This document shows positions 13,961-62,110 of a stretch of DNA of 64,000 nt, piece by piece. The stretch's first letter is position 1, and each line of letters opens with the position of its first letter. The notes under the pieces are model-generated. The model was given only the letters and a program-made list of their open reading frames with translations, was not told the origin of the DNA and ran no database searches. A program made the translations under genes and the position numbers. Location: NCBI GenBank assembly GCA_003024785.1, contig PUQB01000277.1, positions 259,927-323,926 on the forward strand, written 5' to 3'. This DNA comes from Selaginella tamariscina. Taxonomy: Eukaryota; Streptophyta; Lycopodiopsida; Selaginellales; Selaginellaceae.

Positions 13961-15240
13961 ATTTCCTACACGATGTCTGGGTATGTGATGTATTTAATAA
14001 GATTGAGTGTTTTTCTGTTTATGTTTACTATCTCGTAAGTTGGTGAGGCAAACAATAGTCAGTCCAAGAAGGTTGACACACGCAGGTGAACCATTTATTT
14101 TTGAAGAGGTTCTGTTTTACAAAGTTGATACTTATAATACTTTTGACCCTCATTTCTCAACCCTCGTTTTTAACAAGAAGTGAATATCTGTTCTTTACAC
14201 CCTTGTTTTCAACCTTTATTTCATACCCTTATCACCATTTCAGGTTTCCTGTGTAACGTAAATATATAAATTTAACAAATGTAAATAAATATTGTACAAC
14301 ATTACTTAATAAATGTAATATAAACGATGTAAAATTAAAATGTATAAAAATAAATGTATGATATATAAGATAATATGGTAAACTTTACTGTATATAAGCA
14401 CAGAATTTAGTGGTTTAGGGTTTAGGGTTTACTCAAGCCTAAACCCTAAACCAGCCACACATTCAATGACGTGTAAGACTATGCATAAACACATATTAAA
14501 CATGAACATATATTAAACCCTATACCTTTAATGCAAAGGATTATGTATGTAATTATAGGAGTTAGTTGATAATATTTTATAAAAACAATGCAAGATCACT
14601 ATTAATATGCATAGAAAATATGTTTGTAAAGAAATTTTAGAGTTATAATATAGTGGAGAGACGAAAAGATGAAGTTTGTTTATGTGTGTATATATAAAGG
14701 AAATTCTATACACAATTATACAAGACTATATAAACACATAAAACAAAAAAATGACTTCACACACACTCATGTAGAATAATTATATTAAGATAAGTAAACA
14801 TATTAATTAAGTTTTTTATAAGACAAAATATTATGGGTATCTGGTTTAAGGTTTAAACTTTAACCCCTAAACCTTATTCATAATTAACCCAATTTGTTTA
14901 TACAAAAGCACCCAAACATGTTATGTTATGAAAACATGCATATATATATATATTTTATATATATATCTCATATATATAGAAACATATGGTGTAAGGTGTA
15001 AGGTTTAAGCTTTAGGGTTTAAAACTCTATTTTATATCAATTATACATAAGAAAGAAATATATATGCATAAGAAAGTTTAGGGTTTAGGGTTTAGAACTC
15101 CATCTAGAATCCAACAAAGCCTCTAATTACTATTATAAATACATATACACACACTATCCAGGATCATATGGACCAGTTGGTTAACACATTGTAACGATGA
15201 ATTGGATACATGAACTTGTTAAAACAAACATATACACCGC
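13960..15240. other. AT-rich spacer with interstitial telomeric tracts
   Basis: No gene seen. TTTAGGG-type tracts occur at about 14413-14430, about 15002-15020 and about 15077-15095. The first is followed at about 14436-14452 by its reverse complement, making a telomeric hairpin. Confidence 0.6.
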
Positions 15241-16525
15241 TAACAATACACATTATCTTTCCCTTTCTCCACATATATAACTCTGCTTTCAAATAAATTT
15301 TCAGCGTATTAATATGTAGTATTGTGGATATGTATAGTAGTGGGTTTCTTATTATGTGGATTTATTATATATTAAATTATACATTTAAATATCTTTATAC
15401 ATTTACATCATTTACATTTAAACATCTCTCTCTCTCACACACATATATATACATATGACATTAGGGATTGTGCTTGTTAGAGTTTATGTGAGAGCGGTGC
15501 GGTAACAAGGCTATTACTAGAAGTGACAAGGCACAATGGTGACAATCTACACTCAAGTATGCATGTGTGTGTGGATGTGTATTTATAATGTTATGTATGT
15601 GCATATATATAATATGTATAAATATATCATGTGTATACATTTTTAATATACACAAATTCAATTTTATACACACGCTAACATACACATTATCTTTCCCTTT
15701 CTCCACATATATAACTCTGCTTTCAAATAAATTTTCAGCGTATTAATATGTAGTATTGTGGATATGTATAGTAGTGGGTTTCTTATTATGTGGATTTATT
15801 ATATATTAAATTATACATTTAAATATCTTTATACATTTACATCATTTACATTTATAACATCTCTCTCTCACACACATATATATACATATGACATTAGGGA
15901 TTGTGCTTGTTAGAGTTTATGTGAGAGCGTGGCGGTAACAAGGCTATTACTAGAAGTGACAAGGCACAGTGGTGACAATCTACACTCAAGTATGCATGTA
16001 TGTTGTGGATGTGTATTTATAATGTTATGTATGTGCATATATATAATATGTATAAATATATCATGTGTATACATTTTAATATACACAAATTCATTTTCTA
16101 TTGAATAAAAATGTATGTGTATTTGCATTGTTATGTATGGCAAGAGAAGTATTGTGGATATGTATAGTAGGGTTTCTTATTATGTGGATTTATATATATT
16201 AAATTATACATTTAAATATCTTTATACATTTACATCATTTACATTTATAACATCTCTCTCTCACACACACATATATATACATATGACATTAGGGATTGTG
16301 CTTGTTAGAGTTTTGTAGTGAGAGCGTGGCGGTAACAAGGCTATTACTAGAAGTGACAAGGCACAGTGGTGACAATCTACGGATATGTATTTATAATGTT
16401 ATGTATGTGCATATATATAATATGTATAAATATATCATGTGTATACATTTTTAATATACACAAATTCATTTTCTATTGAATAAAAATGTATGTGTATTTG
16501 CATTGTTATGTATGGCAAGAGAGTC
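15241..16525. repeat. Tandem duplication, unit about 435 bp, two full copies and one partial
   Basis: Copy 1 is about 15241-15675, copy 2 about 15676-16150, and a 5'-truncated copy 3 about 16149-16525. Shared landmarks are ACATTATCTTTCCC, CTCTCTCACACACATATAT, GGTAACAAGGCTATTACTAG and AAATATATCATGTGTATAC. A diverged fragment of the same unit recurs near 16830-16920. The copies differ by small indels, for example in the GTGAGAGCG(G)TG region. Confidence 0.85.
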
Positions 16526-17716
16526 TTCACACTTGTTATCTCTTGTATTCATCTTAATAATGCAAGTGCATCTTATGTGGAATCATGTACATATGTATAG
16601 ATGAATGGTTTTTATAAAAAAGGACTTTATGTGAGCGTCAACATGGCTATGACCAAAATAAGTTCTTTCCCCTTACTTGGAGATTAATTAGGCAATGAGA
16701 AGGTAGTAAAATATATACATAAATATCAGTATAAGAAAGTAACCTACTGTTTTAACAAGAAGGTGATCCTTTTTAAAACAATACTTGTTAAAAGAAGACA
16801 TGAATAGTACTTGTTAATAGTATGTATATGTATATAATATATATAAATGTATCATGTGCATACATTTTTAGTATACACAAATGTATAAATTTGTTTTCTA
16901 TTGAATAAAAATGTATGTGTATTTTATGTATGTATGTGGATGTGTATTTGTGTTGTTATGTATGTATATGGATGTGTATTTGTAGTGTTATGTATGTATG
17001 TGGATGTGTATCTGCATTGTTTATGAAAGATAATATCTTAATTGATATGTTCATAGTGTGCATAAATGTATACACTCTTAGTATACACAAACATATATGT
17101 ATTTTTATTGTAAGAAATGTATATATGTTAATCTACTGTACATTGATCAATCTTAGAATATTTCCAAAAATATTCCTAAAGAATTTTATTTTATACTTAA
17201 GTAATATCAAATATTCATATAAGAATCTAGAATATTCTTGAAAAAGTTTATATTGGACTTATCTTCTTGAAACCTTCTTGTCTAGCCTGTAGGATTAATC
17301 CTGTTCGCATTCTTCTTATCCTCTAAGACCACAGTGGATTTATCATGCATGCCGCTAGTCTCCATGGCAGCCAATGGGATTTATCATGCCAAAGCTTTAT
17401 TGCCCTCATGAACATATGACATGATTTATCTTGCTAAAGCCTTATTATTTTCATGGTAGTTGGTGGGATTTATCCTGTCAAAGCATTGTTGCCCTTCAAA
17501 AACCCTAACATTATAAGTTCTCTCACAGGCAAATATAATAAATTAAAACTATATAAACATGTAATATGCTTGCTTGAAGCATTTTTACATATTAAGATTC
17601 ATTTAATCAAGTCACTTGCTCGGTGGTGTACAATTCCAAGTTCTTTCATCACTTTCTTATGACACACAGACTTTAAGTTGCAAAACTAACATATTTTAAT
17701 TCTCTTCTCTAAGAGT
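16525..17716. other. AT-rich spacer with a short degenerate repeat
   Basis: No gene seen. Between 17330 and 17500 a unit of about 60 bp recurs in degenerate form (TGGGATTTATC.TG.CAAAGC.TT.TTGCCC). Confidence 0.5.
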
Positions 17717-17956
17717 ACATCACACGTTCTTATCAAAATAAATAATATATTGAACTGGTTGATACATGAATATAAAAGTGTATTCATGAAACATTTTGAA
17801 AACTGAAAAGGTCACGATAAAATTATTTACAAAACTATATATAAATAATATTATCGCGATCTTTAAGTTTTGTAAAATGTCTCATGAATATACTTCTATA
17901 TTCATGAATCAACACAATTAATATCTTATTCATTTTAATAAAAACATGTGTTATAT
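17717..17956. mobile_element. MITE-like inverted repeat (hairpin)
   Basis: The left arm (about 17717-17820) and right arm (about 17851-17956) are imperfect reverse complements over about 100 bp, separated by about 30 bp of AT-rich loop. The best-paired core runs from GTTGATACATGAAT to CACGATAA on the left and from TTATCGCG to ATTCATGAATCAAC on the right. No coding capacity. The size and structure fit a foldback MITE or a precursor of small RNAs. No target duplication was identified. Confidence 0.65.
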
Positions 17957-17989: not shown

Positions 17990-18690
17990 GACTTAATGTG
18001 TCTTCTTAATCTCACTTACATTGTTTACAATATAATTGTAATTAACGTGATTTTCAACCTATGCATTCTAGAGTGGTTAACTATAAAATGAGATTTTAAC
18101 TATTACTTTTACATAAAGAATTTAAAGTGCATGTTAATAAATACATTAGAAAGATTGAGAATAAGGTTATCTTTAAATTAATGCTTACATCAGATGACTT
18201 GTAGTGTAGGTATAAGTTTGGTGGGAGCTTCTAGTGTTATTATTCCTTGTCCCATTTAAAATTCCTCCTTATGCATTTTTATATTTAACACATTGTACTT
18301 TATTGAACTTGTTATTAATGTTGTTATTAAATTAGTTTCTTGTCAATGTTTCTTGCTGCATGAATTATGCATATGTTATGGTATATATATAATCATAGTT
18401 TTGAAATTATATTTTAGAAGCCCATAAAATGAGTAAACAAATTATATATATATATATATATATATATAATTCAAAACATGACTTACATAACACAAGAATG
18501 ATAAAGTGCATAAACATAGGTGTTAGAATCAATTATAATTTCTTAACGAATGAAGGCTTATCTAATCAAGTACCAATTTTATTATGCGGGAACACTAATA
18601 ATATATATACCATAGCACCTGCATTCATGGGAATACTAGTTAATGGTTAAGACCACCTTTCACATTTTGTAACCATATATCTATTAAAAG
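17990..18690. repeat. Dispersed degenerate repeat, copy A
   Basis: Shares ordered landmarks with about 58960-59490: ATTTTCAAC...GCAT, GTTAACTATA, ATTATTACTTTTACATAAAG, AAGATTGAGAAT, ATGCATTTTTATATT, a TA-rich run, AAAACATGA.TT.CATAAC, and GGCT.ATCTAATCAA. It is AT-rich, has no coding potential, and is probably an old non-autonomous element. Confidence 0.6.
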
Positions 18691-19234
18691 ATCTTGTAAT
18701 GCACGTTGTAACTAAAGTGGGCCATGATACGTGAAAATGGAATATAAAATAAATTACTAATTAATACTTAAGTTTTAATTATTAATTAATCATTTAATTA
18801 ATATGTAATTAAGCCTTAAATATTAATTAATTAATTAATTAATCCTTCAATAACCTTACTTAGTAAGGAATATTCCTAAAATATCTTAGAATATTCATAT
18901 TATTCTAAAAATAGTTTACAATAATGAAGAAATACTATCAAACATAATTACAAATGAAATCATTTCTTATCAACATGTTAATTTTTTATAAATACTTTTT
19001 CCTATCATACAGAGAAATCTCCTCATTTTGTCTAAATCATCACTCTCCGGATTAATCAAATCATTTTGGTCAATATCTTGATGTTGTTGCCACCACTTAA
19101 CACTCTCACGAATGCAATTGGGAGTTGCCATCCTTGTTAATACATAAGATGTAATAAGAAAGGTCTGCATAAAGGCTCATCTAAAAACTGACGTTCCTTA
19201 AGAATAATATTATAAAGCGCCCGGTTGCTATCCT
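18690..19234. other. AT-rich spacer, possible coding remnant on the minus strand
   Basis: TTAAT-rich simple sequence lies at 18760-18845. A minus-strand stretch at about 19170-18970 reads like decayed coding text (IRESVKWWQQHQDIDQNDL) but has no assignable family. It lies just downstream of the FCP1-like gene and could be a remnant of the same element. Confidence 0.35.
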
Positions 19235-20158
19235 TCATTTTATAAAATTCAAATCACGAGAAAGAAAAGCTTCAGGAAATGTATGATACGGTGGATACTG
19301 CTCACAAAAATTTTCGAGATTCTTCTTTCTGAGGCACGTATCCAAGTAGTTCACTAGCTCATCCATGATATCGGTATCAGAATATGGATCGAAAGTGATT
19401 GGATGAATACAAGCAATGTTTTGGTTGAGCATAGCCTTCTGAGGAGAGTCGTCTACTACTAAGATATGTGCATTCTTCATTATCCTTAAGCGACTGATCT
19501 CCCCATGAGTCCCAATTATTCTTTCATTCTTGAAGAAGTATGGCTTGCTTTCCTTTCTTATATTGTGAAATTCGAGAGGTTTATAACACATTCGCTGGTC
19601 AAAAATCCAATCTTTACGAATCACCTCTTCTGCAACACTACAATGTTTCTTAAGCAAATTCAACAGCGGTGTTAAGTTATGAATCTGCATGCATGACCAA
19701 ATCCCCACAAGCGCACCCATCTCCTTAAGCTTTTGAAAGAGACGATCCAACCCTGGACGAAAAATAATATCATATCGAAATTTACCATGACAAGGAATGA
19801 AATCTCCTTGTTTGATTTCTTTTTTCCTATCCTCGGGCCTTTGTCGATGAAGCAGAACACCATTGACATCCAACAACACAATATGGCCATGAGTAACATG
19901 AGATAGCGTTGCCTCTTGAATACTTTGCAAATCACTTGTTTGCTCCCTTTCACATTTATCCGTTGCCACTATCTCGTTGCCTATCCCTTCATCATTTAAT
20001 TGTACATCATCCTTACAAGATTCAGATATTGCATGCGCTGAAGAAATTGATTTCGGAACTGAAGCCAATAAAAATGATGATGAAAAAACTGAAGTGGCCC
20101 CCATGGTAACGATGTTTTGAGCTGCATTATTATCCATTTCCTGCATGAACTCTGTCAT
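19235..20158 (-). CDS. FCP1/NIF-type HAD phosphatase-like protein
   Basis: A C-terminal HAD domain of the FCP1/NIF (CTD-phosphatase) type is visible: motif I HIVLLDVNGVLLH, motif II GIWSCM, and motif IV ILVVDDSPQKA, over about 190 residues. The N-terminal ~85 residues are low complexity and probably disordered. FCP1-type enzymes dephosphorylate serine/threonine, often in RNA polymerase II tails. Here the second Asp of the usual DxDx(T/V) motif is Asn, as in other plant DLNG-type proteins, so activity is uncertain. The first ATG in frame is at 20158. Upstream text to about 20246 (MKIENMDFQHWHE) looks coding but needs one frame change or a tiny intron, so the true start may be there. It lies downstream of, and on the same strand as, the ParB-like gene, with the same short-intron style, suggesting a shared mobile unit. 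Confidence 0.75.
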   Translation of the reverse strand: MTEFMQEMDNNAAQNIVTMGATSVFSSSFLLASVPKSISSAHAISESCKDDVQLNDEGIGNEIVATDKCEREQTSDLQSIQEATLSHVTHGHIVLLDVNGVLLHRQRPEDRKKEIKQGDFIPCHGKFRYDIIFRPGLDRLFQKLKEMGALVGIWSCMQIHNLTPLLNLLKKHCSVAEEVIRKDWIFDQRMCYKPLEFHNIRKESKPYFFKNERIIGTHGEISRLRIMKNAHILVVDDSPQKAMLNQNIACIHPITFDPYSDTDIMDELVNYLDTCLRKKNLENFCEQYPPYHTFPEAFLSRDLNFIK

Positions 20159-20522
20159 TCTGACATGTGGCACAAGAAATTGTCGCCAAACCCCTCTCTT
20201 ACCTCATGCCAATGCTGAAAATCCATGTTCTCAATTTTCATTACATCTGCAAAATGATAATTAGCTGACCTTAAAATTATCAAGGTATATTATTTACCTT
20301 GTTAATGTGTGACCCATGTTTGAACTAAAAGCTTCATTAATCCTTGAGAATTTATTTTCTGTACAAATATAAAAAAATATACAAAAATGCCTTATGTTAC
20401 ACTCATTTACAACTATTCATCACTCTAACAATTCATTAACAATTCTTCTTCGCTATTACCTTCTGAGTGAGGCGAAGAAGGTCTAAGCCGCTTGTGAGAT
20501 GGTTCAAGATCTTCTGCATCTT

Positions 20523-21680
20523 CTATTGATGTTTCCATGGGTAATGGAGTGTGCGAATGTTCTGTACTCCTCGAGATAACTTCCGGTCTAATATCTGATT
20601 GAAGTTCGTCTCAGACTCCGACATTGAACCAGATTCGTCTTCAGAGCTATCGCACTTATCTGGAGGGAACTTTCTCAAATACTCCTTTATGGATTCGTTG
20701 GGGTAGTCAGTTGAGAACCTATCTATCCACTTGTTCAGGTCCTCAACCATGGTCTTATCCTTTTCAACGGCAAACACACATGTATGCCGAAGGTAACACT
20801 CCTTCAAGACGGACCCCCTAGTGCAGTAGTCAAAAACCCACGCATCACTGTGAGGACCCCTGATCAAGTTGACGATGCTCCGTGCCGCTTGACTTGTGAT
20901 GTTTGGATAACGTACATTGCCGAATACGTCACTCTCACCTATCGGTGTATCGGATGGGAGTTCAGGGCCGTTGGAGTGCAAACAGATGCCTGGCCAGTCA
21001 TTTGGAAGTTGAAATTGTTTGGCGCATTCCTAACAACCAAGTGAACAACGAATCAATGCACTTGGATCAGCATCATTCATATAAAATCCTGTCCAACGAT
21101 GTTTATTCTCTTGGCAAGGCGAAGGCAAAGTATCGGTGACATGAGCAAGAATCAAGAAATAAATACCTGAAAAAGTAGATATCAGTCAAGAGTGCAAGCA
21201 TGAATTCAATAATAAATACCTTCTTTGTACATGCTTGCACGGCTAAGTTTCTCCACCAATCCTCTAGTGCCTGTCTGTCGAAGATTTTTTGACACCCGCC
21301 GATCCATCACGAACAATTGAAACGGTTTCCTACAAGCAGTGATGTACCCCATAAAGTCTCCGAATCCAACAACAAACATCTGTAGGGCTTGTCGTGATTC
21401 GTAGCATCCTCCTTTATAAGGTTCAACTCGGTTCTCCGCTGCTGAAGGACTGCCATAAGAGAAGGCGTCATCCAATGTTCTCCTTTTTGGCGTTGGCGTG
21501 CAATAGATTCTTGCCCAGATCTTCGAATTGATTCACCCATTCGACAAGCATATCATTGTCACATGCAAATATTTGCTGACCTCTTCGTATGTTGAAGCCG
21601 AAATCCAACCCAGTTTGTGGCAGTGTATTCCCAACCACTCCTTGAATGTGTCTTCAACTCCTCCAGATGAAAAGAATTGC
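20523..21680 (-). CDS. Methyltransferase-like C-terminal region, probably of the ParB-like protein
   Basis: The clearest part (20981-20523) contains a RYPNITSQAARSIVNLI segment, then DAWVFDYCTRGSVLKECYL and CVFAVEKDKTMVEDLNKWI, and ends with an acidic Ser/Glu-rich tail. This layout resembles motif I and motif II of N4/N6 DNA methyltransferases (hydrophobic strand, Gly-rich loop, then E-x-D binding S-adenosylmethionine). The Gly-rich loop is degenerate (CTRGS where F-x-G-x-G is usual). Upstream coding-like pieces at 21540-21200 (FGDFMGYITACRKPFQLFVM, TGTRGLVEKLSRASMYKEG) are in shifted frames. No DPPY-type catalytic motif was found. It may be one protein with the ParB-like region upstream, broken by frameshifts or short introns. 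Function as an active methylase is doubtful. Confidence 0.45.
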
Positions 21681-21684
21681 TGTG

Positions 21685-23522
21685 TTAATCTGTAATTTTA
21701 TTCACCAAATCAGCCAAGACTTCCATCTCCTCCATCGTTGTTCCATTTAAAGGCTTCAACCATGTGAGCTTGAAATCGTTGTCTACATCCTTTATAGATT
21801 GAACAGACTTAGCCTTCGGCGTCTTACTGGGTTTCTTTGCAGACTTCTCTGAGGGCTCCACTTCACTTGTCTGCTTCTTCTTCAGTGTTCCTTTTGCAAA
21901 GGATTCCATAATCCCCAACCATTTGGCAAAGATCCTATCCTCGGGACAAGAAATCAACATCATCAAAAAGGATGTTTCCTTCCCGCCCACCTGGGCAAAA
22001 TCAACTGCTACAATTTCTTCAACTCTCTGAGGAAAAAGACAGATTAATATACCGGCGAGATAAATCCCGCCCAAACAATTTGCTTACCCGGTATTCCGCA
22101 GATTGTGTATTCCTGCGGTAGCTCTTTGTGGTCGCTGAAGAGATTCCCACACGGCTCGCGTGTGTTTGAACTTCTCCCATATTTTGCTGTTGTAGTGGTT
22201 GGTGTCTGCAGCGTCCCATTCCGCCGATAACTTATGGTACTGCTCGATTGTGAGATTCGGCTTCGCTAAAAACGCCGATCTTTTCGTCAGCTTCTCACGG
22301 GTATGCTCGGAAAGTTTTGTTGCCATCGTTCCTTTGTTGTGTTCGTCGAGAAGTCGTTGGGCTGCCGTTATTGTGTGCTGGCCACTAATGATGTAGTACT
22401 TAACTGATTTTCTATTCTCCGTCTGAACCTTCCTCATTTGTTCCGGTGTTGTGATCCACACTTTGTCAGCGCCTTTTGTCTTCGTAGTATGCGCACAAAA
22501 CAGCATTATGTGGAACGGTGTAAGAATTGTCGTCCTTCATCTTCTCCATGAGCTCAGCTACACGTTCCTGATTGAGTGGCCTGTAATTGAAGTTTGGGTT
22601 GACGCTGCAATACTTAACCCTACACTGGTAAATCCTATCATCCAACATCATTTCCTTTGGCTTATTGCAGCATGGGACGCCACAGGTGCAGCTGACAAAA
22701 CGACTAATGATTTTCTTTTACGATCCGAATCAACATGTGTGATCCCCGATTGATGCTGTTCTAATGTTCTCGGCACACTCTTCCAGCTCCCGAAATTTCT
22801 AAGCAAATTGAACGTGATCTGTAAAGAACCTGAGACCAAGCCACCCTCTCAATCTCCTTTATGATGTCGCTGTGTTCTTCTTCAATGTGAAGAGGGAACG
22901 ATTGCTCCACTTGCTGATTTTCTGTATTGTGAAGCAATATCTCCTGACAATACACCTACTCGATGAGTCTGAAGATCTTCGAAGTAGACATCCAGATGGA
23001 TCCCCTCCATAGATGGGCTTTCGTTGAGTTGAAGAAGAACTCCAAGGTCAACATCATTAGTGAACACGTGAACGTCATTATCCACAAGTCGACAAAACCA
23101 CCCGAAATTAATGTTGTAACTGGCGACCTCTGGATCCGAGAACGTGACATTGGATGGAACAAGGCATATGTGTCGAGCATCGTTCAATCTGGGTTCACAG
23201 CATGCTTTCGGATGCTTGACTAGCACACCCACTTTCCATTGTTTTGCTTGTCCATGCGATGTGACAGAGGTTAGTTTGACAGCAACCATGGTTGTTCCAA
23301 TGCGCTTCCCGTTTAGTTTGAAATATGGCCAAGTTGATTCCAGAATCCCCCTGCCCATCTCTTCTCCTGCTCTCGTCTTTAATGTCACCTCAATTCCACA
23401 TCTGAATACAAAAATGATTAGTTCATATCCGAGTATAACAGATTTTATTTTAATTCTTACCCAGAATTTGACGACGACTCCATACTAATGACTCGATCTC
23501 CTTGTTTGATCAAATCGTCCTT
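21685..23522 (-). CDS. ParB-like domain protein (multi-exon, frameshifted)
   Basis: Exon 1 (23522-23461; KDDLIKQGDRVISMESSSNS) splices across a 59-bp intron (23460-23402) to a long second exon that starts GCGIEVTLKTRAGEEMGRG. That N-terminal ~170-residue region is unassigned. A ParB/Srx-like core follows: VNPNFNYRPLNQERVAELME (about 22600-22540) and YYIISGQHTITAAQRLL (about 22400-22350), the pattern of ParB N-terminal nuclease/CTPase-like domains. Downstream is a helical region with NHYNSKIWEKFKHTRAVWE, and then a lysine-rich linker to 21685. Frame changes are needed near 22955, 22800, 22700, 22480 and 22070. One sits in an AAAA run and looks like a simple indel. ParB-methyltransferase fusions are known from phages and some mobile elements. 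The gene starts about 600 bp downstream of a palindrome array. Confidence 0.6.
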
Positions 23523-23826
23523 CTGCAAAATAATACACTATGAATACAAATCATATAAAAACGCACACACACTTGTATAAACCCGAATATACAAAAATAA
23601 TACACAGAGAGAAGTAGACGGAATTAACTGTCCAAAGCTCACATTTGTGCTAGTGCAAAAGAAAGATAACATTTCGTTTTAGAACCACCACAAATGTGAG
23701 CTCTGGACAGTTTTACATAGATTCCTAGCTTTTACTCGAAATATTATGATAAGATGATAAAAGTAAATAAAATGAGATATGCAACTTATATATACTAATA
23801 CACATATATATTCACATGGAAGGTGC
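23523..23826. other. 5' flank of the ParB-like gene
   Basis: AT-rich. A short inverted pair (AAAGCTCACATTTGTG near 23634 and CACAAATGTGAGCTCT near 23690) could form a hairpin. Otherwise nothing is seen. It probably holds the promoter and 5' leader of the leftward unit. Confidence 0.4.
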
Positions 23827-24700
23827 GGCGGGATTAATCTCGCCACCCCTTCAATGCCTCCTGAAAGAGTGGGCGGGATTAATCTCGCCACCTTTCTGGA
23901 GGCCTTGAACGGGAGTGCGGAATTAATCTTGCCACCCTTCTCGGTCTCAGAGAGAACTGGGCAGGATTTATTTGGCACACCCCTTCAGTGACTCCAGAAA
24001 GGAGGCGGGATTAATCTCGCCCACCATGTAAGGGATGGTTAAATGAATTTCCACCCTTCCCAATTCTCTCCATTGGTATGTTGTAAACCTTCTACGTCTC
24101 AGACAGAAACGTTTGGGATTGGTCCGACTCACCAATGGAGAAAAAAGGAAGGGTGGCGGGATTCATTCCTCCAACAGGCATTGAAGGCTCGGCGGGATTA
24201 ATCCCCCCAGGCCTTCACTCGGTCCCTATGCGGCGGATTAATCCCGCCGGACGCCAATTCCCTGCTCGAATCGGCGGGATTAATCCCCGCCTACCTTAGG
24301 CAGCCTTGGCGGCGGGATTAATCCCGCCTGATTCCGCGTAGGCAGCGGATTAATCCCGCCGACGCCAATCTTGGGCGGCGGGATTAATCCCACCGCCTAG
24401 GCCCTTTAGGCAGGCCAATGGCGCGGATAAATCCCGCCCAATTCCGCACAGGGCATGCACACGCGGGATTAATCCCGCCGCCCAAGCCCTTCACTTCGGC
24501 CCTAGGCGGCGGATTAATCCCGCTGCCTAGGGCCCGAGTGAAGGGTCGGCGGCGGGAAATCCCGCCGCCTAGGCCCTTCAGGCAGGCAATGGCGGCGGAT
24601 TAATCCCGCCGATTCTGCGTAGGGCATGCGTAGGCGGAGAGGATTAATCCCGCTGCGAGTGGCTAATTATATAGCGGCGGGATTAATCCCGCCGCTACAC
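23827..24700. repeat. Palindrome array 1 (about 19 units of GGCGGGATTAATCCCGCC)
   Basis: Each unit is a perfect or near-perfect 18-bp palindrome centred on ATTAAT, spaced about 40 bp apart from 23827 to 24695. Units nearest the ParB-like gene are degenerate (CTCGCC, CTTGCC, one ATTTATTTGGC); those farther out are closer to consensus. Spacers are GC-rich and partly repeated (AGGCCCTTCAGGCAGGC-like). The surrounding DNA is AT-rich, so the block stands out by composition. It is not a CRISPR (no unique spacers of fixed size; symmetric units). Likely a dimer-binding site array or subterminal repeats of a transposon. Confidence 0.9.
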
Positions 24701-25600
24701 ACACACACACACAGATATATATATGTATATGTGTGTGTAGGAGAGTGCGTGTGTGTGCCAGAGATAGTCAAATCAGATAAAATTATACAGATACACACAC
24801 ACATATATATATGTATATGTATATGTATATACGCGTCTGTTGCGAGAGATAGATAAATAAATAAAATTATACAGATACTGGTACACATAATATATGTATG
24901 TATACATAGGTATATATATATATATGTGTATATGTATATCGTGTGTATGCGTGTGTGAAACAAATAAAATCATACAGATACACACACATATATATATAGG
25001 AGTGTGCGTGTGTTACAATTAACAAATCAATAAAATTATACAGATACACACACACACATATATAGATAAATAAATAGAATATATATATATATATATATAT
25101 ATCTGTGTGTGTGTGTATATGTATATATATATATCTGTGTGTGTATATGTATACGACTGTGCGTGTGTGCGAGAGATAGAGATCTATAGAGAAGAGAAGA
25201 GAGAAGGATATATATATATATATATATATCTGTGTGTGTATATGTATACGAGTGTGCGTGTGTGTGCGAGAGATAGAGATCTATAAGAGAGAAGAGAGAA
25301 GAATATATATATATATATATCTGTGTGTGTATATGTATACGAGTGTGCATGTGTGTGCAAGAGATAGAGATCTATAAAAAGAGAGAGAGAGAATATATAT
25401 ATATATATATTATATATCTGTGTGTATATATGTATACGAGTGTGCGTGTGTGTGCGAGAGATAGAGATCTAAATTATATTATTAAGATACACACACATAT
25501 AAATATATATGTGAATAAAAATAAATAAATATCACAAATAAACGCAGAGGAGTGTGCGTGTGAGAGAGAGAGAGAGAGATCTCACCTGTGTGAGAGAGAG
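24700..25600. repeat. Complex TA/CA/GA microsatellite region
   Basis: Tandem blocks of about 90 bp combine (TA)n, TGTGTGTGTATATGTATA, CGAGTGTGCGTGTGTGTGCGAGAG, ATAGAGATCTATA and GAGAGAAGA. At least four copies lie between 25080 and 25480. No coding capacity. Confidence 0.85.
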
Positions 25601-27290
25601 AAGGAGATTTCGCTCGCCGCCGCCGCCCGCCTTACAAACCCTAGGAATATACCAAAACCCTAAAAGGAATAGAATATATATTAACCCTAATCGAATATTC
25701 CTTTTAAGAATATACTTAAACCCTAAAAAGAATAAACTATAGATTCGCCCTAAACGAATATTCTTTCATTATATTATCAGCGTGTGCGTGTGCGTGGGTG
25801 TATCACATACACCCCAAGAATAAATATCATGCAAGGGTTTAACACGTGTGTATGAGAGTGTTAAAGTTTCACATGCAGCGATACATATATACATAGTATT
25901 ATACACATAGACATACATACATATTATATATTTAATATTAGAGAGACAGAGTACAGGATCATGTATGGTGTGTATGTATGAGAGAAGAGTGACAATACAT
26001 ATTATGGATCATGCATGGTGTGTATGTTTGAGAAAAGAGAGACAGTACATATTTACATGGATCATGCATGGTGTGTATGTATGAGAGAAGAGTGAGAGTG
26101 TTAACAAATTAAATTCATACACATTGGATATATTAGTACACACATATACATACACACGTGTATACACACAGACATACATATATTACATGTGTAAATTCAA
26201 TGTAGGGTTTAGGGTTTAGGGTTAGGATGGATCATGCATGGTGTTTATGTATGAGAGGAGTGAGTGTTATACACATATACATTATACATATTACATAATA
26301 TTGTAACATCAGTACATATTATGGATCATGCATGGTGTGTATGTATGAGAGAAGAGACAGGCTACATATTATGGATCATGATCATGCATGGTGTGTATGT
26401 ATGAGAGAAGGGATTATGCATGGTGACACTGTGTATGTATGAGAGAAGAGATAGAGTGTTAACAAATGAAAATCGTACACATTGCATATATTATATTAGT
26501 ACACATATATACATACACACGTGTATACACACAGACATACATATATATTACATGTGTAAATTCAATGTGTTACATACACACACACTGAGTACATATAGAT
26601 CATACATGCGTTGAACATGATGTTTTTCAATAAAGAAGCAACATATAATTTCTCAAGTTTGGTTTAGGGCAATGTGCATGTGTGTGCATATGTGTCTCTG
26701 TAAGTGCTTCTAATGCGTGTGCACATGTATATATAAATTTATGATTGTGTTTATATATAATATGTGCAAAACAAACATCGAATAATTAAGAAAATAATAT
26801 TAATATACACACTATGAACATATTTTAAATTATACATAATAATATATGATTTTATCTAATATATAGCCATATATAGTTTTAATAATATATATTAATTTAA
26901 ATTGATAATAAGGTTTAACACTAGAATATTCTTGAAATAATAACAAATTAATTGAGAAAATCCCATTAATATATACAAATGTAGAATAATTACTGAGATA
27001 ATTAAGAATAAGACTAATTTAATTATGATAATCATGTTTAATATTGGAATATTCTTTGAATATTAAGAAAATAATAAAGAATATCCCATTAATAGTAGGA
27101 AATGTAAATTAATTACTCGAGTAATTAAGAAAATAATAATAATAAACAGACTATGAATATATTTAAATGATACATAATAATATATCAATTTATTTATTGT
27201 ATTAGTGTATATATATAATATATAAACTTAATAATATATACTTGAATATTAAGAATGTAGAATAATTACAAAAATTTCGTAATATTAAAC
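25600..27290. other. AT-rich core between the palindrome arrays, with a dispersed ATCATGCATGG repeat
   Basis: Several ACCCTAA and AACCCTA motifs lie at 25640-25760 and a TTTAGGGTTTAGGG tract at about 26207-26222. A unit containing GGATCATGCATGGTGTGTAT followed by GTATGAGAGAAGAG recurs about seven times between 25950 and 26460, some with a shared upstream TACATATTA. The rest is AT-rich with no gene visible. Confidence 0.6.
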
Positions 27291-27800
27291 AGCTTGAAGC
27301 ACTTGAATGACATTAAATGCAATTTTAAAACACTCATTGGAATTGGAGAGTATATATGTCAGACTGTCGGTTATTTGTTTCAACTCATCTTAAATTTTCT
27401 TTTCTGTTATTTCAAAAATTTTGAATTTCTGACATAAGTATTATCAGTCTGACATGTAAATTTGAAAATACATTTAATTTCCCACTCAAATTCAGATCTG
27501 GTTCTTTCTCCGGCAAGGGTTTCTTCATTTTCACTCTTCAGATTTTCTTTTTTCTTCTTAGTGATCAGCTCAGGAGCGACATTAAATTGGGTGCGCTATT
27601 GTTTATAGGAAAGCACGGCGCCTTCAGTGCTGTTTACAAGTAAGTATTATAAACAAATTTAGATATATTTATAAAGATTCACTCTCTTACATTCTCTCTT
27701 AAATTTTAGAATTTAGGGATTTAGGAATGCATTAGGATTACAATATATTCTGTTAGGGATTTATCCGTTTAAATATACTTTTAACTTAGTATTCTCGGTT
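27290..27800 (+). other. Candidate 5' exon and promoter of the rightward unit
   Basis: Composition rises to moderate GC near 27480-27640, and a clean donor (GTAAGTATT) occurs at about 27640. The next good acceptor in the same direction is TTTATGTGCAG ending at 28724, just before the start codon of the 28732 gene. If used, the intron would hold the whole second palindrome array. No protein family is assignable to the candidate exon, and it may be non-coding. Confidence 0.3.
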
Positions 27801-28580
27801 AGCCGGGGCGGCGGGATTAATCCGGCCATTTTTTTTCGCCTCTTTGAAGAGGTGGCGGGATTAATCCCGCCACCATCTCTTTCATAGCTATGGCAGAATT
27901 AGTTCGGGCAATGCTTCTCCGCCTCTTAAAAAGAGCGGCGAGATTAATCCCGCCGATAACTCTCTCAACTGATAATGATTTACTTGAATTTATTAGAAAG
28001 AGTTGTCGGCGGGATTAATCTCGCCAACCATTTTAGGAGGCAGAGAAGGGGTGGCGGGATTAATCTCGCCACTACTTCCCTGTTTTAAATATTTGTGGGC
28101 AGAATTCATCCGAATCTCTTTGAAATCATAGTTTCGGAGAGAGTTGTGGGCGGGATTAATCCCGCCGCTTATTCCCCGTCGTCAGAGTTGTGGGCGGGAT
28201 TAATCCCGCCCCTATTTCCGTCAGTGTTGTGGCGGGATTAATCCCGCCTCTTCCTCGTCGGAGGAAGCGGCGGGATTAATCCCGCCGCTACTCCAGTCGA
28301 GGAAGATCCGCCGGGATTAATCCCGCCGTACTTCCTCGTCGGAGGGACGGCGGGATTAATCCCGCCGCTACTTCCTCGTCGGAGGGAGCCCGGCGGGATT
28401 AATCCCGCCCTCTCTCGTCGGGAGAGTCGCGGCGGATTAATCCCGCCGACTCTCTCCGGGGTAGAGTCGGCGGCGGGATTAATCCCGCCGACTCTCTCCG
28501 ATGGGGTAGAGTCGGCGGCGGGATTAATCCCGCCGACTCACTCTGAAGGGGTAGAGTCTGCGGCGGGATTAATCCCGCCC
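27800..28580. repeat. Palindrome array 2 (about 16 units of GGCGGGATTAATCCCGCC)
   Basis: Same 18-bp palindrome as the 23827-24700 array, spaced about 40 bp. Units near 28430-28560 are embedded in longer symmetry (GAGTCGGC...GCCGACTC), and the spacers themselves contain inverted GACTCTCTCCG/GGGTAGAGTC text, so the array is palindromic at two scales. One unit at about 28096 is badly degraded (GAATTCATCC). It lies 150 bp upstream of the start codon of the rightward gene, mirroring the first array relative to the leftward gene. Confidence 0.9.
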
Positions 28581-28731
28581 ATCAGTTATATTAATAAAGC
28601 ATGAGATATTATTTATATATAATTATGTATTATTGCACATGCATATTATTAAGCAACTGCAGTTATGATTTCTTACAAATATTGCATAAACAGATATCAT
28701 AAATAACACAATTATTTATGTGCAGGACAAT

Positions 28732-29310
28732 ATGTATAATACTGGAGATAAAGTATGTCTTCTTCGGAACAACGAGATAGTTGGCACTGGAACTGTGGAA
28801 GTTCGAGATGATAATGCATCATGTCACAATATTGCCCAAGGATCTTGTGTGTACGTATGGGTGAACACCATTTTCAAGCATGTTGAGGTTCCTGGAATGG
28901 AATTTGAGGAGGGTTCTCCTGTATTGTGGAATTTGGATGAAGTCAAGGCTGACACAGAATATACAGAGTCACAAACAAACAGTAGCACGAGTTTTCCAGA
29001 TGATGGCTTGCCTGCTGTGATGGATGAGGTGATTCTCTTTCTTCATGAGATTGAGGTTGGGAGAGGCATCATCACAGCTATAAATCCAATGGAAGCAGTG
29101 TCAGAAGAGAAACTAGGGTCCGACTTCGTGGGTGTAGTTGTGACAGAGGTTTCACCTAATGGCACTTTGCATCCTGGATCCCTCGTGAGGTGGCGAACAT
29201 CTGAATTAAGACGGCAAGATGGTTCAACATATTCTGGGTTGGATTTCAATAATAACAACCCGGAAGAACAACTCATATTTGAAGAGGTTCCTTGCATTGG
29301 TCCTATTTAA
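28732..29310 (+). CDS. Small TE-associated protein, unassigned (about 192 aa)
   Basis: The ATG at 28732 follows an acceptor-like TTTATGTGCAG (ends 28724). The frame is open to 29310. Two related-looking halves can be seen: GDKVCLLRNNEIVGTGTVEV followed by VYVWVNTIFKHVEVP, and MDEVILFLHEIEVGRGIITA followed by VVVTEVSPNGTLHPGSLVRW. Each suggests a small beta-barrel (SH3/Tudor-like or DUF8039-like) repeat; this is inference. The GDKV opening is reminiscent of GDRV at the start of the ParB-like protein on the other strand. The end overlaps the first part of the transposase-like frame, so the two could be one protein split by a frameshift. Confidence 0.55.
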   Translation: MYNTGDKVCLLRNNEIVGTGTVEVRDDNASCHNIAQGSCVYVWVNTIFKHVEVPGMEFEEGSPVLWNLDEVKADTEYTESQTNSSTSFPDDGLPAVMDEVILFLHEIEVGRGIITAINPMEAVSEEKLGSDFVGVVVTEVSPNGTLHPGSLVRWRTSELRRQDGSTYSGLDFNNNNPEEQLIFEEVPCIGPI

Positions 29311-29324
29311 GAAAAAGGCGATTC

Positions 29325-31840
29325 ATGGGTTGCAGATCTTCCCCTACATGTTTCAGCAAGAGGATGAAGATGGATCCTACATCTTCCGAAAGTGTTACGA
29401 GCATTTCCACGATTGACTGCTGCAAGAAGAAGTGTTGTCAGATGGCAGACCGGAATGAAATTACCCAATGTAGACATGTCTTTCGTACGCTCACCCAAAA
29501 GCAAAGGCATGAGTTTGTATATGCTGCACTAACTGGGTGTATTGATGGAATGGCTTCGGACACAGGTTATCAGAGTACATCCATGGTATTTAATAAGGTG
29601 GCCATCTGCTTCAAAGCTTGGTACAGTATATATGGGATCCCAAAGACCACGTTCTACCGTCGGAGGGATGAGTGGTTAGATGGAGCGCGAACCTCAGTAC
29701 ATGGGAACACTGGCTTGGTCAAAACCCGCTCTCACATTATGGCAGCCATAGAGATACTCAAGGCTTTTGTGGAAGCAAATGCAGACAGGATGCCTCACAA
29801 ATGCCGAACCACAAATGCAGGGGTCAGGGAAAATCTCAAGGTTTTGCCTTCGATCTACACTCAATTGAAGCTGTGTGAACATGTGAACAAGTGCCTCAGC
29901 TTGATGGGGCTGCAAGCAATCTGCACTGGTACCTTCAACAACATATGGAATACTCATTTTAAGGATGTGGAGATTGCAAAACACTCTAGCTTTTCCAAGT
30001 GTGACACTTGTACATCATTGAAGGCTGCAGAGGCTTGTGCAAAAACCTTGGTGGAGATCACTGCCATTCAAAAGAAGATGGAGGCCCACATGATTGCGCA
30101 ACAAACTTGCCGGTCTCAGTACTATGCACACCGCATGCTTTCTGTGTCACACCCATCAGAGTACCTGTGCTTGATCCATGACAAGATGGATCATTCAAAG
30201 ACCAGCATTCCAAAGCTCGTTGCAACACCAAAGTGCCTTGGAAATGTCATGAAACTTCCGATTTCATTGACAGGTGTGCTAACACATGGACACGGTTGTG
30301 AATCATATGGACACTTTTCACTTCCACATTGGTCTAGCGACTCCAATTTCACTATTGGGTCGTTGGCCATGTGTTTCAGAAACCTTGAAGCCCACTCACA
30401 GACAAGTCCTATCGGTGATCTCAAAGTGAAGAAACAACACCTTCAACCTTTACATAATGCTCTCATGAACACGTCTGCACTTGAGGCTACTTGGGAATAT
30501 GAGAGGCATTGTCAGCAACCTGCACAAAAAACAGATGGCCCTGTTGAGAGTTCAGGTTCAGTGGAGGGATCTAGCTCAAATAGTGTACATGTGTCCTCAA
30601 CATCAAATAAGCTTCCTCGTCATTTGCTTTTACAGATGGATAATTGTGCAGGCGAGAACAAAAATAGGTAAATCATTTTACTTAAGGGTTTCTCAAGCTC
30701 ATACTTACTTTTATTTTCTAGATATGTGCTAGCATACTTGTCAATGCTTGTTGCCAAAGGTGTGTTTGAAACAATCACGCTCAGTTTTCTTATGGTTGGT
30801 CACACTCATGAAGATATTGATGCGTTCTTCAGCAAGGTCTCCAACTCTACAAAAAGGACAAGTGCACTTACCTTACCGCATATGATGAATCTTTTTGAAA
30901 ATTGCATCTCCAAAAAAAGTTGTGCTTTGCTTGTGACTGAGGTGCCAGACTTCAAAAAATTTCTCAAGGAGTATATAAAAGAGGGGAGTGATTCTTTAGT
31001 TGGTCACCTTGTGCCGCTACAATTCTTTTTCTCCATACGAGATGGTATACCTATTATGCAGTACAAGTTACGGCCATCAGAGCAGGAGTGGTTACCGAAA
31101 GAGGGTTAATGCTCTTCAAAAGTGGAGAGAATGGAAAGCCACTTCTCCCAGAAGGACAACCAGACCCTATTCCATTGAGTGCCCAGCTCAAGGAACAAGA
31201 GGTTATTATTGATGGCATCAAAAAATATGTGGCATGGGTTCAAAAATCGATGCCAAAGAATTCTGATAAGGCAACTGGTTACTCAGAACTATATAAGCAT
31301 GTGGTTGACTATTGGGAGACTGTTGTTCGAGAGTTGGAAGGGCCTACTGTCACAAGTACAGAATTGCAACACCCTTTTTTCAAGGTGGCGAGAGGAGATT
31401 GAAATGACATCACTGAGCACAGACGACATAGAAGCCAGTAGTGATGTGGAAGTGCAAACCCCACACTTTGTTGGACAAAGGAACCAAAAACCTAAAGCAT
31501 ACTTTGATTGCTGCCAGGATCTTCAAAAACTAATGATGGTTCTCATTACTCCAGATGCGTCATATAATCAGCCTATTTGGATGGGTCAAATTATCGACAC
31601 ACCTGAAGTAATCACAAAAAATAGTATTGTTAAGGTTGCATGGTTCAAACCACAAAAAAGGCGACACGAAAGGAGAGCGAAAGATATAATGGATGCCTAG
31701 AGAAAACATGGTCTCCCAATCAAAAAGACCCAGCATGTTTTATAAATGTTAAATCCATTCGATATGGGTGGATGTCAAGAAGCGTTGATAAAGTCACGAT
31801 TAACAAAACTGCAAGGGAATGTATGTTTTCTGAAGCTTAA
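29325..31840 (+). CDS. DDE-like transposase candidate (DUF7869-type), frameshifted C-terminus
   Basis: First ATG in frame at 29325. Near the N-terminus a CCKKKCC motif and RHVFRTLTQKQRHEFVYAAL are seen, then a helical DNA-binding-like part (YGIPKTTFYRRRDEWLDG), and an RNase H-like core with candidate acidic residues in LIHDKMDH, LLLQMDNCAGENKNR and LMVGHTHEDIDAFFS. A 54-bp intron (30668-30721) splits NKN-R-YVLAYLS precisely. Beyond 31106 the protein continues only after frame changes near 31095, 31385 and 31690. Its last part (PIWMGQIIDT, VKVAWFKP) is Tudor/BAH-like. I relate it to the DUF7869 family of eukaryotic mobile-element proteins from memory of the motif; a profile search would settle it. 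Decayed relatives lie at 32400-33150 and 59560-60170. Confidence 0.65.
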
Positions 31841-32400
31841 AGCAATTACAAAATTATAAAATATCATATATTTAATATTCATAATTATTATAAACTCTTT
31901 AATAATAGTACCAAATTGTTTACTTAACTATATAAATTTAAAAAATGATATGGAAGATTGACTATATTATAAGGATTTATATTATATACTACAAATTTTT
32001 AATTAATAATGTTATATTTAAATATTAATATTTTAATAACAACATCAATATTTATATAATGTACCTCTTATGCTCTTCCTTAATTGTTATATTAGGCAAT
32101 ATATTATATAATTTAATACCTTCTACTTTTATAATGTTATTAATTTTGTTCAATGAATGCTATAATTTATTAAAGGGTAGAATACAAAATAGAATATTCT
32201 AAAGAATATTCTATTTTCAAACATATATTCTAAAGAATATTCCTTTAATATTAGAAAATGCTAATTAAATAGCTAAAATTGCTAATTATTAGGAAATGGA
32301 CTATAGCCATCCCATTTTAGTTACAACTTGCATTGTATGATAAATAAATAACATATGTTACAAATTTCATATTATGAACGAAGAGGTTAATTTTTTTTTA
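31841..32400. other. AT-rich spacer
   Basis: No gene seen. An inverted AGAATATTCT motif recurs near 32185-32240. Confidence 0.5.
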
Positions 32401-33150
32401 AAGTTCCATCATCAATTTATACTCAGATGAAGTTGTGTGAACAGAGAATTCAATACACACTCTTGTGTAACATGAAAACAAGTGCTTGGTTTTTGACAAG
32501 GTTTCGAATAATATATAACGCCACTTCAACAACATAAAACACTTTATTTAAAGATATAAAAAAATGGAATTACACTTCATTTTTTTAAGTATGAAATTTA
32601 CATGTCACTTAAAATTGTAAAATCATCCAAAAAGGCCAACTAGTAAGATGATTACTACTTAAAAGAAGGTGAATGATTATGTGATTACTTTATATATTTA
32701 TTGCTCTAAATACTATGCACATCAAATGTTTTTCATAGCATGGTGATTAAAATACTCCTACTTTCCACAATAAAATGACATTTAAAGCCTATATTAATTC
32801 ATTAAATACCCTTACTTAATACACAACGAAATGGACTAAATAATTATACAAAATCTTAAATCAATCTTTGACTAATGCAAAAGTTGTTAAAGCTAATGAT
32901 TAATTACTTATTTGAATGGGTTAAATTATTGGTAAACTTGAAGTCATCAAAAAAATGATGTGTAAATTTTAATTACAAACACAACGACAACACGAAAAGG
33001 AAATATAATTGAGGGCTTATAAAACATGGTTTTCTAGTGAAAAAAGAGTTCACATTGGAAATATTAAAATGTCAAAATCAATAAATTACAAGAAAAATAC
33101 ATTAATTTTTATGGTGAGATAGTATACCCTTATAATTTATCTTTTAATTA
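32400..33150 (+). pseudogene. Decayed copy of the DUF7869-type transposase gene
   Basis: Ordered nucleotide similarity to the 29325-31840 gene: TTTATACTCAGATGAAG.TGTGTGAAC matches the region near 29856, CACTTCAACAACAT matches near 29933, ACTATGCACATCAAATG matches near 30121, and GGGTTAAATTATTGGTAAAC onward matches near 31583. Middle parts are deleted. Most differences are C to T or G to A, so the copy is now strongly AT-rich and closed by many stops. Confidence 0.65.
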
Positions 33151-33884
33151 AGAATCTTAACAATTAAGTATGTCATTATTTCTTTAAACATAAAATTATT
33201 TTAAAGAATATTCCAATATTAAATATTTATTTAATTATTAAAAAATATTAATTAAATAATTAAAATTATTAATATTACTTATAGAAAGTTGATCTTGTTT
33301 GAAAGTGCTTCTTTGGCAACACAATCTAGAGCGTGCAGTGATAATGAGAATAATGGGTTTCTACCTACATATATTTGCTTCAAAAGTTATGTGACATAGT
33401 TTTTCATTTATTACATATATGATGGCACAAAATAATTTAAGAATAAAGTAAGAATTTATTACTAAGCATTATTCAACCGAGAATAAAGCAAGGAGAAAAA
33501 TTTTAAAATGTAAATTTTAACTTCACTTCAATTTATTAAAGATACCCTTGTCAAACTATTGTTATATATCTACCTGAGTTGAGCGGCATTTTTGCAATAC
33601 ATATAATCTTGTCATCCGGTTCAGATAATACAATGGTCAAACTTCAGAATAATATAAAAGTTATGATATAAAAAGAATAAATCTTTTAGAATTATGCTCC
33701 ATGAATTAATTGATGCTAAGTATATGAGTTTTAGTAGACTGTTTGGTAGCGTGAGGAAGCTTATCGTAATAAATTTACACAAAGGTTTCAGAAAAATTTA
33801 CATTTTATTACTAAAATTCCTTTGAAAATCAAAGGTTCCAGAAATTTTTACTACAGAAGCAATCTAAAAGCACATTATACGATG
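33150..33884. other. AT-rich spacer before the gene island
   Basis: No gene seen. Base composition changes sharply at about 33880, where the first housekeeping gene begins. Confidence 0.5.
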
Positions 33885-60559: not shown

Positions 60560-61100
60560 TTAAAGACAAGTTCCACGAGTCCTGAGACCTGGTTTAGTAG
60601 GATAACGCCGATGGAAGGCAGCAACCTTGGAAGAAGCATGGAATAAATTGGATACAGGTTCCCAAGTGCGATCGGTGGGCAAATAACCTTTCCAATTTAC
60701 CAAGTATTGAAGTTGGCAGTGATAAGATGAGAATTAAGGATGGCTGCAACTTCGTATTCAGGTTCATCGTCAATGACTATACGGGGGGAGGAGAAGAAGC
60801 ACGAATAGGAAGAGAAGAAAGATGATACAGTTCCAATAAAGAGGTGTGAAACATAGGATGAAGTTTCACTAAAGACGGTAGCTCTAGTTGGAAAGCTACA
60901 AGATTAACCTCAGCCGCTATCCTGTAAGGGCCGAATCGTTGAAAATCCAACTTACAAGAAGGCATGTTGGTGCAAATATATCTAAAGAAGCCACACGAGA
61001 TCACCAATCTTGTATGCATGTGCTAGTTAACGATGAGCATCAGCATGATGCTTGTACTGTTCTTGTGCCTGTTGAAGATGAACCCGGAGATTATCCTTCT
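60560..61100 (-). pseudogene. Chromovirus integrase C-terminus and chromodomain fragment
   Basis: On the minus strand from about 61095: LRVHLQQAQEQYKHHADAHR, AYKIGDLVWLL, KLDFQRFGPYRIAAEVN, LHPMFHTSLLELYH, then the chromodomain QYLVNWKGYLPTDRTWEPVS ending at a stop at 60560-60562. Chromodomains in these integrases target heterochromatin. Stops occur near 61030 and 60985. At about 61100-61115 the text switches to an RT on the opposite strand, so two different gypsy copies are joined. Confidence 0.75.
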
Positions 61101-61109
61101 CCTTCTCCT

Positions 61110-62110
61110 TCTCCTGCTTCTTCCCTGTCATCCAAGTATCACTCCTTTCAGGACATTTTTGACAAGCACAAGGCTGCAGTTCTTTTAGTTCACAAGTCCT
61201 ACGACTGTCCTATCAATCTTGCGGAAGGAAAGACTCCACCGTTCGGATTGATTTATGCACTGTCACGTACAAAATTGGAGGTTCTTCGTTAATACATCGA
61301 GGACAACTTGGCATTCGACTTCATTCATCACTCAAAGTCCCCTGCAGGAGCACCTATCTTCTTTGTCAAGAAGAAAGATGGGAGTTTGCGTTCGGTTGTG
61401 GACTATAGGGGTTTGAATCAAGTCACCATTTGGAACCGGTACCCATTGCCATTGATCCCGGAACTTCTCGATCTGTTGCGAAGAGCAAAGGTGTTCACGA
61501 AGACCGACTTATGAGGGGCTTACAATCTTGTACGGATTCATCTAAGCGATGAGTGGAAGACTGCCTTTCATACAAGGTATGGACACTTTGATACACGGTG
61601 ATGCCTTTCGGACTTACCAATACCCTAGCCATGTTCCAACACATGGTGAACGACATCTTTCGTGACTTCTTGAACTAGTTTGTGATAATCTACCTCGATA
61701 ACATTTTGATTTTCTCCAAGGACCAAGTGGCACATGACAAGCATGTACAACTAGTTCTACAGGCTCGCGAGTATGGCCTGTATGCAAAGTTGGAGAAATG
61801 TTTTTTCAACAGGATACTGTGGAGTTCTTGGGCTACATGTCTCTCATGCTGGCGTTTCCATGGACATGCACAGGTGAAGACTATCGTGGAGTGGGAGAGG
61901 CCCAAGTCTTTACAAGACGTACAGTGTTTCCCTGGCTTTGCAAACTTTTACAGGCGATTCATACAAGACTTCTTCAAGCCTGTATTTCCACTCACGGAAC
62001 TCACCAAGCGCACAAGAGTTTTCTCTTGGTCCGACAAGGTGGAACATGCATTCACAACACTCAAGGACGCCTTCACGACAGCTTCGATTTTAGCACATTC
62101 TGATCCTTCT
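61110..62110 (+). pseudogene. Ty3/gypsy reverse transcriptase and start of RNase H
   Basis: Reads [95 protein letters not shown] and FPGFANFYRRFIQDF, then SWSDKVEHAFTTLKDAFTTA. In-frame stops (about 61290, 61513, 61678) and a shift near 61830 show it is dead. The YLDN box replaces the usual YIDD. The frame breaks at 62110 where a solo LTR is inserted and resumes at 63875. Confidence 0.85.

Follow-up and report, generated by a model that had tools for sequence, protein, structure and literature searches.

In this study, we analyzed a 64-kb stretch of the Selaginella tamariscina genome (contig PUQB01000277.1, positions 259,927–323,926; hereafter the window), which very probably contains a single autonomous transposon of the cut-and-paste type with a length of 13,635 bp (window positions 18699–32333). 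Its limits were set from other copies in the same genome, which were sought across the 300.7-Mb genome assembly. The element carries three genes: gene A encodes a DUF7869 protein, predicted to be the transposase, while gene B, encoding a large orphan protein, and gene C, encoding an FCP1/NIF-like protein, lie on the opposite strand beyond a simple-repeat core. Treating all of this as a single transposon is justified by common ends, terminal inverted repeats (TIRs), 4-bp target-site duplications, many near-identical copies, a DDE-fold transposase, gene linkage and selection on a gene B exon. A preliminary description of the window had outlined a block at 19235–31840 and considered that it could be a single large element able to mobilize its own DNA. 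The common ends, TIRs, target duplications and gene linkage agree with such a mobile unit, but its true limits are 18699–32333. The term composite, in the strict sense of two flanking elements, for which no dedicated search was made, is not needed.

Aligning copies, as the preliminary description had proposed, defined both ends. On the left side, 19 of 20 copies align with the window from positions 18689–18699 onwards and never upstream, while alignment of the remaining copy (C1) begins at 18819; a pattern search located the left end motif in 18 of these 20 copies. The TIRs are 22 bp each (18699–18720, plus strand; 32312–32333, minus strand) with 20 of 22 positions identical between left and right, and in the window they are bordered by the duplicated TGTA (18695–18698 and 32334–32337). 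The right end was searched for in 0.5–1 kb at the expected place of 16 copies and found in nine; with both ends placed in eight copies, calculated lengths range from 13.4 to 14.0 kb. At the expected place, C1370 contains reversed core and C739 left genes, in each case belonging to another copy, the stretch examined in C588 is still within the element, and the right end of C25, C993 and C13 was unmatched within these stretches. C448 has a variant right end that adjoins the core of another copy, and the copy on C1203 sits in a 79% identical sibling (L010, L048). A 4-bp target-site duplication is present in 7 of 10 flank pairs (window included), compared to 3 of 90 shuffled pairs. The duplicated 4-mers are TGTA, ATTA, CCAA, ATTA, ATAT, ACAT and GTTT, while C474, C738 and C191 lack a duplication; C448, with its variant right end, was excluded from these pairs, and no duplication was seen in it by eye. 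Close to the ends, the AT palindrome GAATATTC occurs at 18868 and 18889 (left subterminal region, 18860–18900) and at 32192, 32204 and 32235 (right subterminal region, 32190–32245). Within the element it is found nine times, compared to 0.58 expected from first-order shuffles, and the subterminal palindromes are putative binding sites.

The number and similarity of the copies show a recent high-copy burst of the three-gene element. With a 1-kb probe taken from the left-hand genes, at least 40 scored copies were detected in the genome at 97–100% identity, and with a gene A probe at least 40 scored copies at 99–100%. Among 18 other gene A sequences, two differ from the window by one substitution in approximately 3,290 aligned bases, with 11–12 gap columns, a third by one substitution over a 2,023-base part, and the remaining ones by 2–44. 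The window copy has frame breaks without counterpart in most copies read, and copies free of these breaks exist. Single-base gaps, as they typically arise from assembly errors, make up many of the differences between copies, a feature that could also be taken to indicate a segmental duplication or an assembly artefact instead of transposition. This is contradicted by the unrelated flanks, because the left flanks of 20 copies on 20 contigs have nothing in common with that of the window, and also by the exact ends, TIRs and 4-bp duplications, so that such an origin is extremely unlikely. Further subfamilies are likely present in the genome, as judged from match scores: 91 of the 150 places listed in the family search score 95.0 bits, as do the window-family copies C136, C302, C79 and C169, while the remaining places score above or below this value.

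The linkage of the three genes was addressed from both sides. In six copies in which both ends were found, gene A was read in all six and alignable gene B in five; the exception is C1082, whose gene B piece did not align. Six copies drawn from the at least 40 gene A copies and picked by a gene A exon alone all contain the left genes (window 19435–21067) with 95.7–99.6% identity, in the correct orientation and at most approximately 1.3 kb off the expected spot. Likewise, of 150 gene B sites, 11 are paired with a match to gene A or the right end in the orientation and at the distance that the element predicts (12 pairs, window included), whereas six shifted distances each yielded either no pair or one; the two match lists barely overlap, and the other 139 sites are uninformative on linkage. 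The divergent genes have one array each, and some copies are inserted into others; both observations would be compatible with two nested or adjacent elements with common binding sites, of which one holds the DUF7869 gene and the other genes B and C. Such an arrangement is nevertheless highly unlikely, considering the correctly oriented gene B/C end in every copy picked by gene A, the joint presence of genes A and B in five of the six both-ended copies, and the lack of any TIR-bounded half element among approximately two dozen copies examined. The co-occurrence of the gene set, which the preliminary description had suggested to check, therefore holds for the copies examined in this genome; a regular solitary occurrence of the transposase gene or gene B, which it had named as counter-evidence, was not what these copies revealed.

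Gene A (28732–31840, plus strand) consists of three exons at approximately 28732–29281, 29360–30668 and 30722–31840, with limits set by eye. Two of its ORFs match Pfam DUF7869 (PF25273), namely ORF 29283–30671 (plus strand, E 5e-13) and ORF 30672–31109 (plus strand, E 1e-27). A protein search revealed 156 relatives with up to 55% identity, and those with a named source come from liverwort, molluscs, corals, anemone and sea star; these DUF7869 proteins belong to the same transposase family as gene A. The structure model of one relative, P0003, the N-terminal region of which resembles that of the gene A protein by eye, contains an RNase H-like DDE transposase core. In a fold comparison of this model, Mos1, Metnase and Sleeping Beauty rank high with modest Z scores, and Foldseek against the PDB with the transposase relative gave no match at E≤0.001. 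Across 16 sequences, the residues D273/D276, D426 and E465/D466/D468 (typed query numbering) show no or almost no variation, and their counterparts in the model were placed by eye at strand ends and in a helix, as in DDE enzymes. Gene A is predicted to encode a DDE (RNase H-like) transposase with a triad of acidic residues. DUF7869 is not mentioned by name in the literature searched.

The gene block and the divergent layout given in the preliminary description are supported by profile matches on both strands, DUF7869 on one side (E 1e-27) and a NIF phosphatase on the other. The latter is encoded by gene C (18985–20252, minus strand), in which ORF 19235–20203 reaches 46.9 bits against Pfam NIF (cut-off 21.8; E 3e-12; residues 108–293); a C-terminal extension and a short 5' exon, both recognized by eye, are probable. 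FCP1/NIF phosphatases of the HAD type share the catalytic motif DxDx(T/V). Gene C deviates from this motif and reads DVNGV, in which Asn replaces the second Asp (DxN). Gene B (20523–23520, minus strand) has several exons with putative limits, according to the majority reading of seven to eight sequences. Outside this genome, no relatives were found at E≤0.001 for gene C and at E≤1 for gene B in a protein search that demands common 5-letter words and similar length and is hence weak. A short-intron style appears common to the genes of the element by eye only, and a short inverted repeat with CTGTCC...GGACAG arms was noticed by eye 5' of gene B (23628–23715).

The best-kept exon of gene B (22084–22536, minus strand), which is the part labelled ParB-like, has 83–100% identity to the 150 genome matches listed, 129 of which contain no stop. 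Two exons from a subfamily, which hardly differ from one another, were compared with the window over 122 codons, because the start of the window's exon is out of frame, and the comparison resulted in dS values of 0.18 and 0.17, dN values of 0.023 and 0.016, and dN/dS ratios of 0.13 and 0.10; over the full length the ratios are 0.28 and 0.21. These low ratios against a diverged subfamily suggest that the exon is under purifying selection and that the protein has probably been retained. Variants inside the family itself display no synonymous excess (2 synonymous:12 for gene B and 6:13 for gene C). Purifying selection within the family had been considered from a third-codon excess, but was dropped, as the excess consists largely of a few shared or indel-adjacent variants. 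Genes B and C could instead be passengers that were captured from the host and play no part in transposition. The NIF fold family occurs in plants, which together with a B/C linkage to DUF7869 that is known from this genome alone would be in line with a capture; on the other hand, gene B has a low dN/dS against a subfamily and many stop-free matches, and no donor is visible, as B and C have no relatives in the protein search, which did not cover host NIF genes. A passenger status is consequently rather unlikely.

The proposed identity of gene B found no support in the searches. Its ParB-like label derives solely from the motif reading GQHTITAAQ, and the respective part has no match in Pfam (E≤10), NCBIfam or PHROGs (both E≤1), the PDB, the protein database or phages. 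For the methyltransferase-like region, searches in Pfam, NCBIfam, PHROGs, the PDB and the protein database were equally negative, a DPPY-like motif was not seen by eye, and an AlphaFold2 model from one sequence reached a pLDDT of 35 and was unusable. With both labels unmatched and this model, the suggestion that the element marks and binds its own DNA receives no direct support.

Between the divergent genes, an AT-rich simple-repeat core (24694–27809) is bordered on both sides by palindromes, as previously stated: 17 near-palindromes of GGCGGGATTAATCCCGCC form the left array (23827–24693) and 16 the right array (27810–28579). The arrays had been called identical, but they share one motif and are not identical copies. 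With up to 5 mismatches, GGCGGGATTAATCCCGCC occurs 35 times in the window, the two additional sites being located at 17462 and 22054, whereas 20 first-order random sequences modeled on 23801–28600 contain a mean of 0.0 (up to 4 mismatches) and 0.1 (up to 5 mismatches). The arrays adjoin both divergent genes with approximately 15 palindromes each, and across 12 loci (window included) the right array comprises 13–16 palindromes with a spacing of mostly 43–45 bp. CpG observed/expected ratios are 0.95 and 1.24 in the arrays, 0.41–0.84 in other parts of the element that were measured, and 0 at the right end. The plant telomere-type repeat TTTAGGG forms short runs inside the core (26200–26230) and outside of the element (14400–14450).

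A decayed sibling on C1203, which is cut by another copy, contains the same array 5' of the same gene. In its first exon, 11 codon changes are synonymous and 27 non-synonymous, and stops are present as well, which fits a dead copy, and its fuller left half falls in a run of N. In the sibling, palindromes (83% identical) are better kept than spacers (64%). However, the DNA around the array is 87–91% identical and thus above the palindromes, indicating that the complete array evolves more rapidly than the sequence next to it; in addition, alignments within repeats can be wrong. A putative 5' UTR exon of gene A (27510–27640, plus strand), recognized by eye with a GTAAGT donor, is 91% identical in the sibling, like its surroundings.

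The arrays may alternatively act as RNA, when hairpin trains in 5' UTR introns feed or evade small-RNA silencing. In line with this, RNA of the right array (28140–28590) folds at -330 kcal/mol, compared to -196 kcal/mol for shuffled sequences (z -21), and splice-like signals are visible by eye on both sides of the right array. However, strong folding is expected of any palindrome array, 35 of 45 palindrome changes in the sibling are C to T or G to A, as methylated DNA would give, and many of the changes leave pairs broken. An RNA function of the arrays thus appears rather unlikely.

For the single autonomous transposon, the following mechanism can be envisaged. The DUF7869 protein, with two N-terminal Tudor/SH3-like domains, would bind the TIRs and the subterminal GAATATTC motifs, excise the element and, with a 4-bp stagger, insert it into AT-rich DNA. 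Transcription of genes B and C would start from the common core and run away from gene A, and the arrays could provide dense dimer-binding sites beside both promoters or in first introns. Their binder might be a protein of the element, most likely that of gene B, which would set the expression of the gene set or resist silencing; this array-binding step is tentative and rather less likely to be correct than to be wrong. Even more doubtful is an own DNA-organizing system, in which a ParB-type element protein on two arrays of approximately 15 phased palindromes would form a mid-element partition or boundary site, open divergent transcription and bridge the DNA for transposition, while the FCP1-like protein would tune RNA polymerase II. 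Palindrome arrays and a gene product that was read as ParB-like are reminiscent of ParB-parS partition systems, but differences are the lack of any sequence or profile match to ParB and the approximately 15 sites, mostly 43–45 bp apart, beside promoters.

To the left of the element lie weak, decayed palindromes (17288–17479; 4–8 mismatches of 18, no chance control; spacing 41–45 bp), and to its right the 3' half of a decayed transposase (32400–33290; 59–76% identical). With these remnants on both sides, the window copy seems to have landed within an older relative of matching orientation. Additional features are a 434-bp tandem duplication in AT-rich DNA (15231–16097; 97% matching), a large hairpin with 114-nt arms that are 78% complementary and separated by 12 nt (17716–17955), and ORFs that by eye resemble pieces of a Ty3-type retrotransposon reverse transcriptase (60888–62242). 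Rfam gave no match within window positions 18000–33000.

In terms of classification, the element is very likely an autonomous, recently mobile TIR transposon. CACTA (EnSpm) elements have CACTA/G termini and a 3-bp duplication, and the ATGCA ends and the 4-bp duplication do not fit this group. By its target duplication and TIRs, the element fits a Sola-like assignment, with Sola2 compared by description. Sola2 elements are described with AT-rich 4-bp duplications, TIRs of 12, 13 or 21 bp and an 888-amino acid transposase, and the Sola2-Fanzor chimeric elements of dictyostelids carry non-transposase proteins (PMC3627910). The AT-rich 4-bp duplication, the short TIRs, the large transposase and the extra proteins are therefore shared, whereas the available part of that description makes no mention of genes B and C or of palindrome arrays (PMC3627910). 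Kolobok lineages likewise combine a DDD/E transposase with lineage-specific proteins, and in this respect resemble the DDE-type transposase with accessory proteins found here, but the accessory proteins described in the available part of that source are nucleases, a helicase or KolX (PMC9587614, Kojima and Bao). KolobokP is further described with long terminal direct repeats (PMC9587614), none of which were seen here, although no dedicated search was made.

A paper describing such an element was not noticed in the literature searched, while accessory proteins in eukaryotic transposons are already known, as far as the available part of the source shows (PMC9587614). The widespread transposase domain DUF7869 is now linked to defined ends, a target duplication and a set of genes. 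The burst of a three-gene element with a probably selected orphan gene provides a test case for accessory genes and internal palindrome arrays in eukaryotic transposons.

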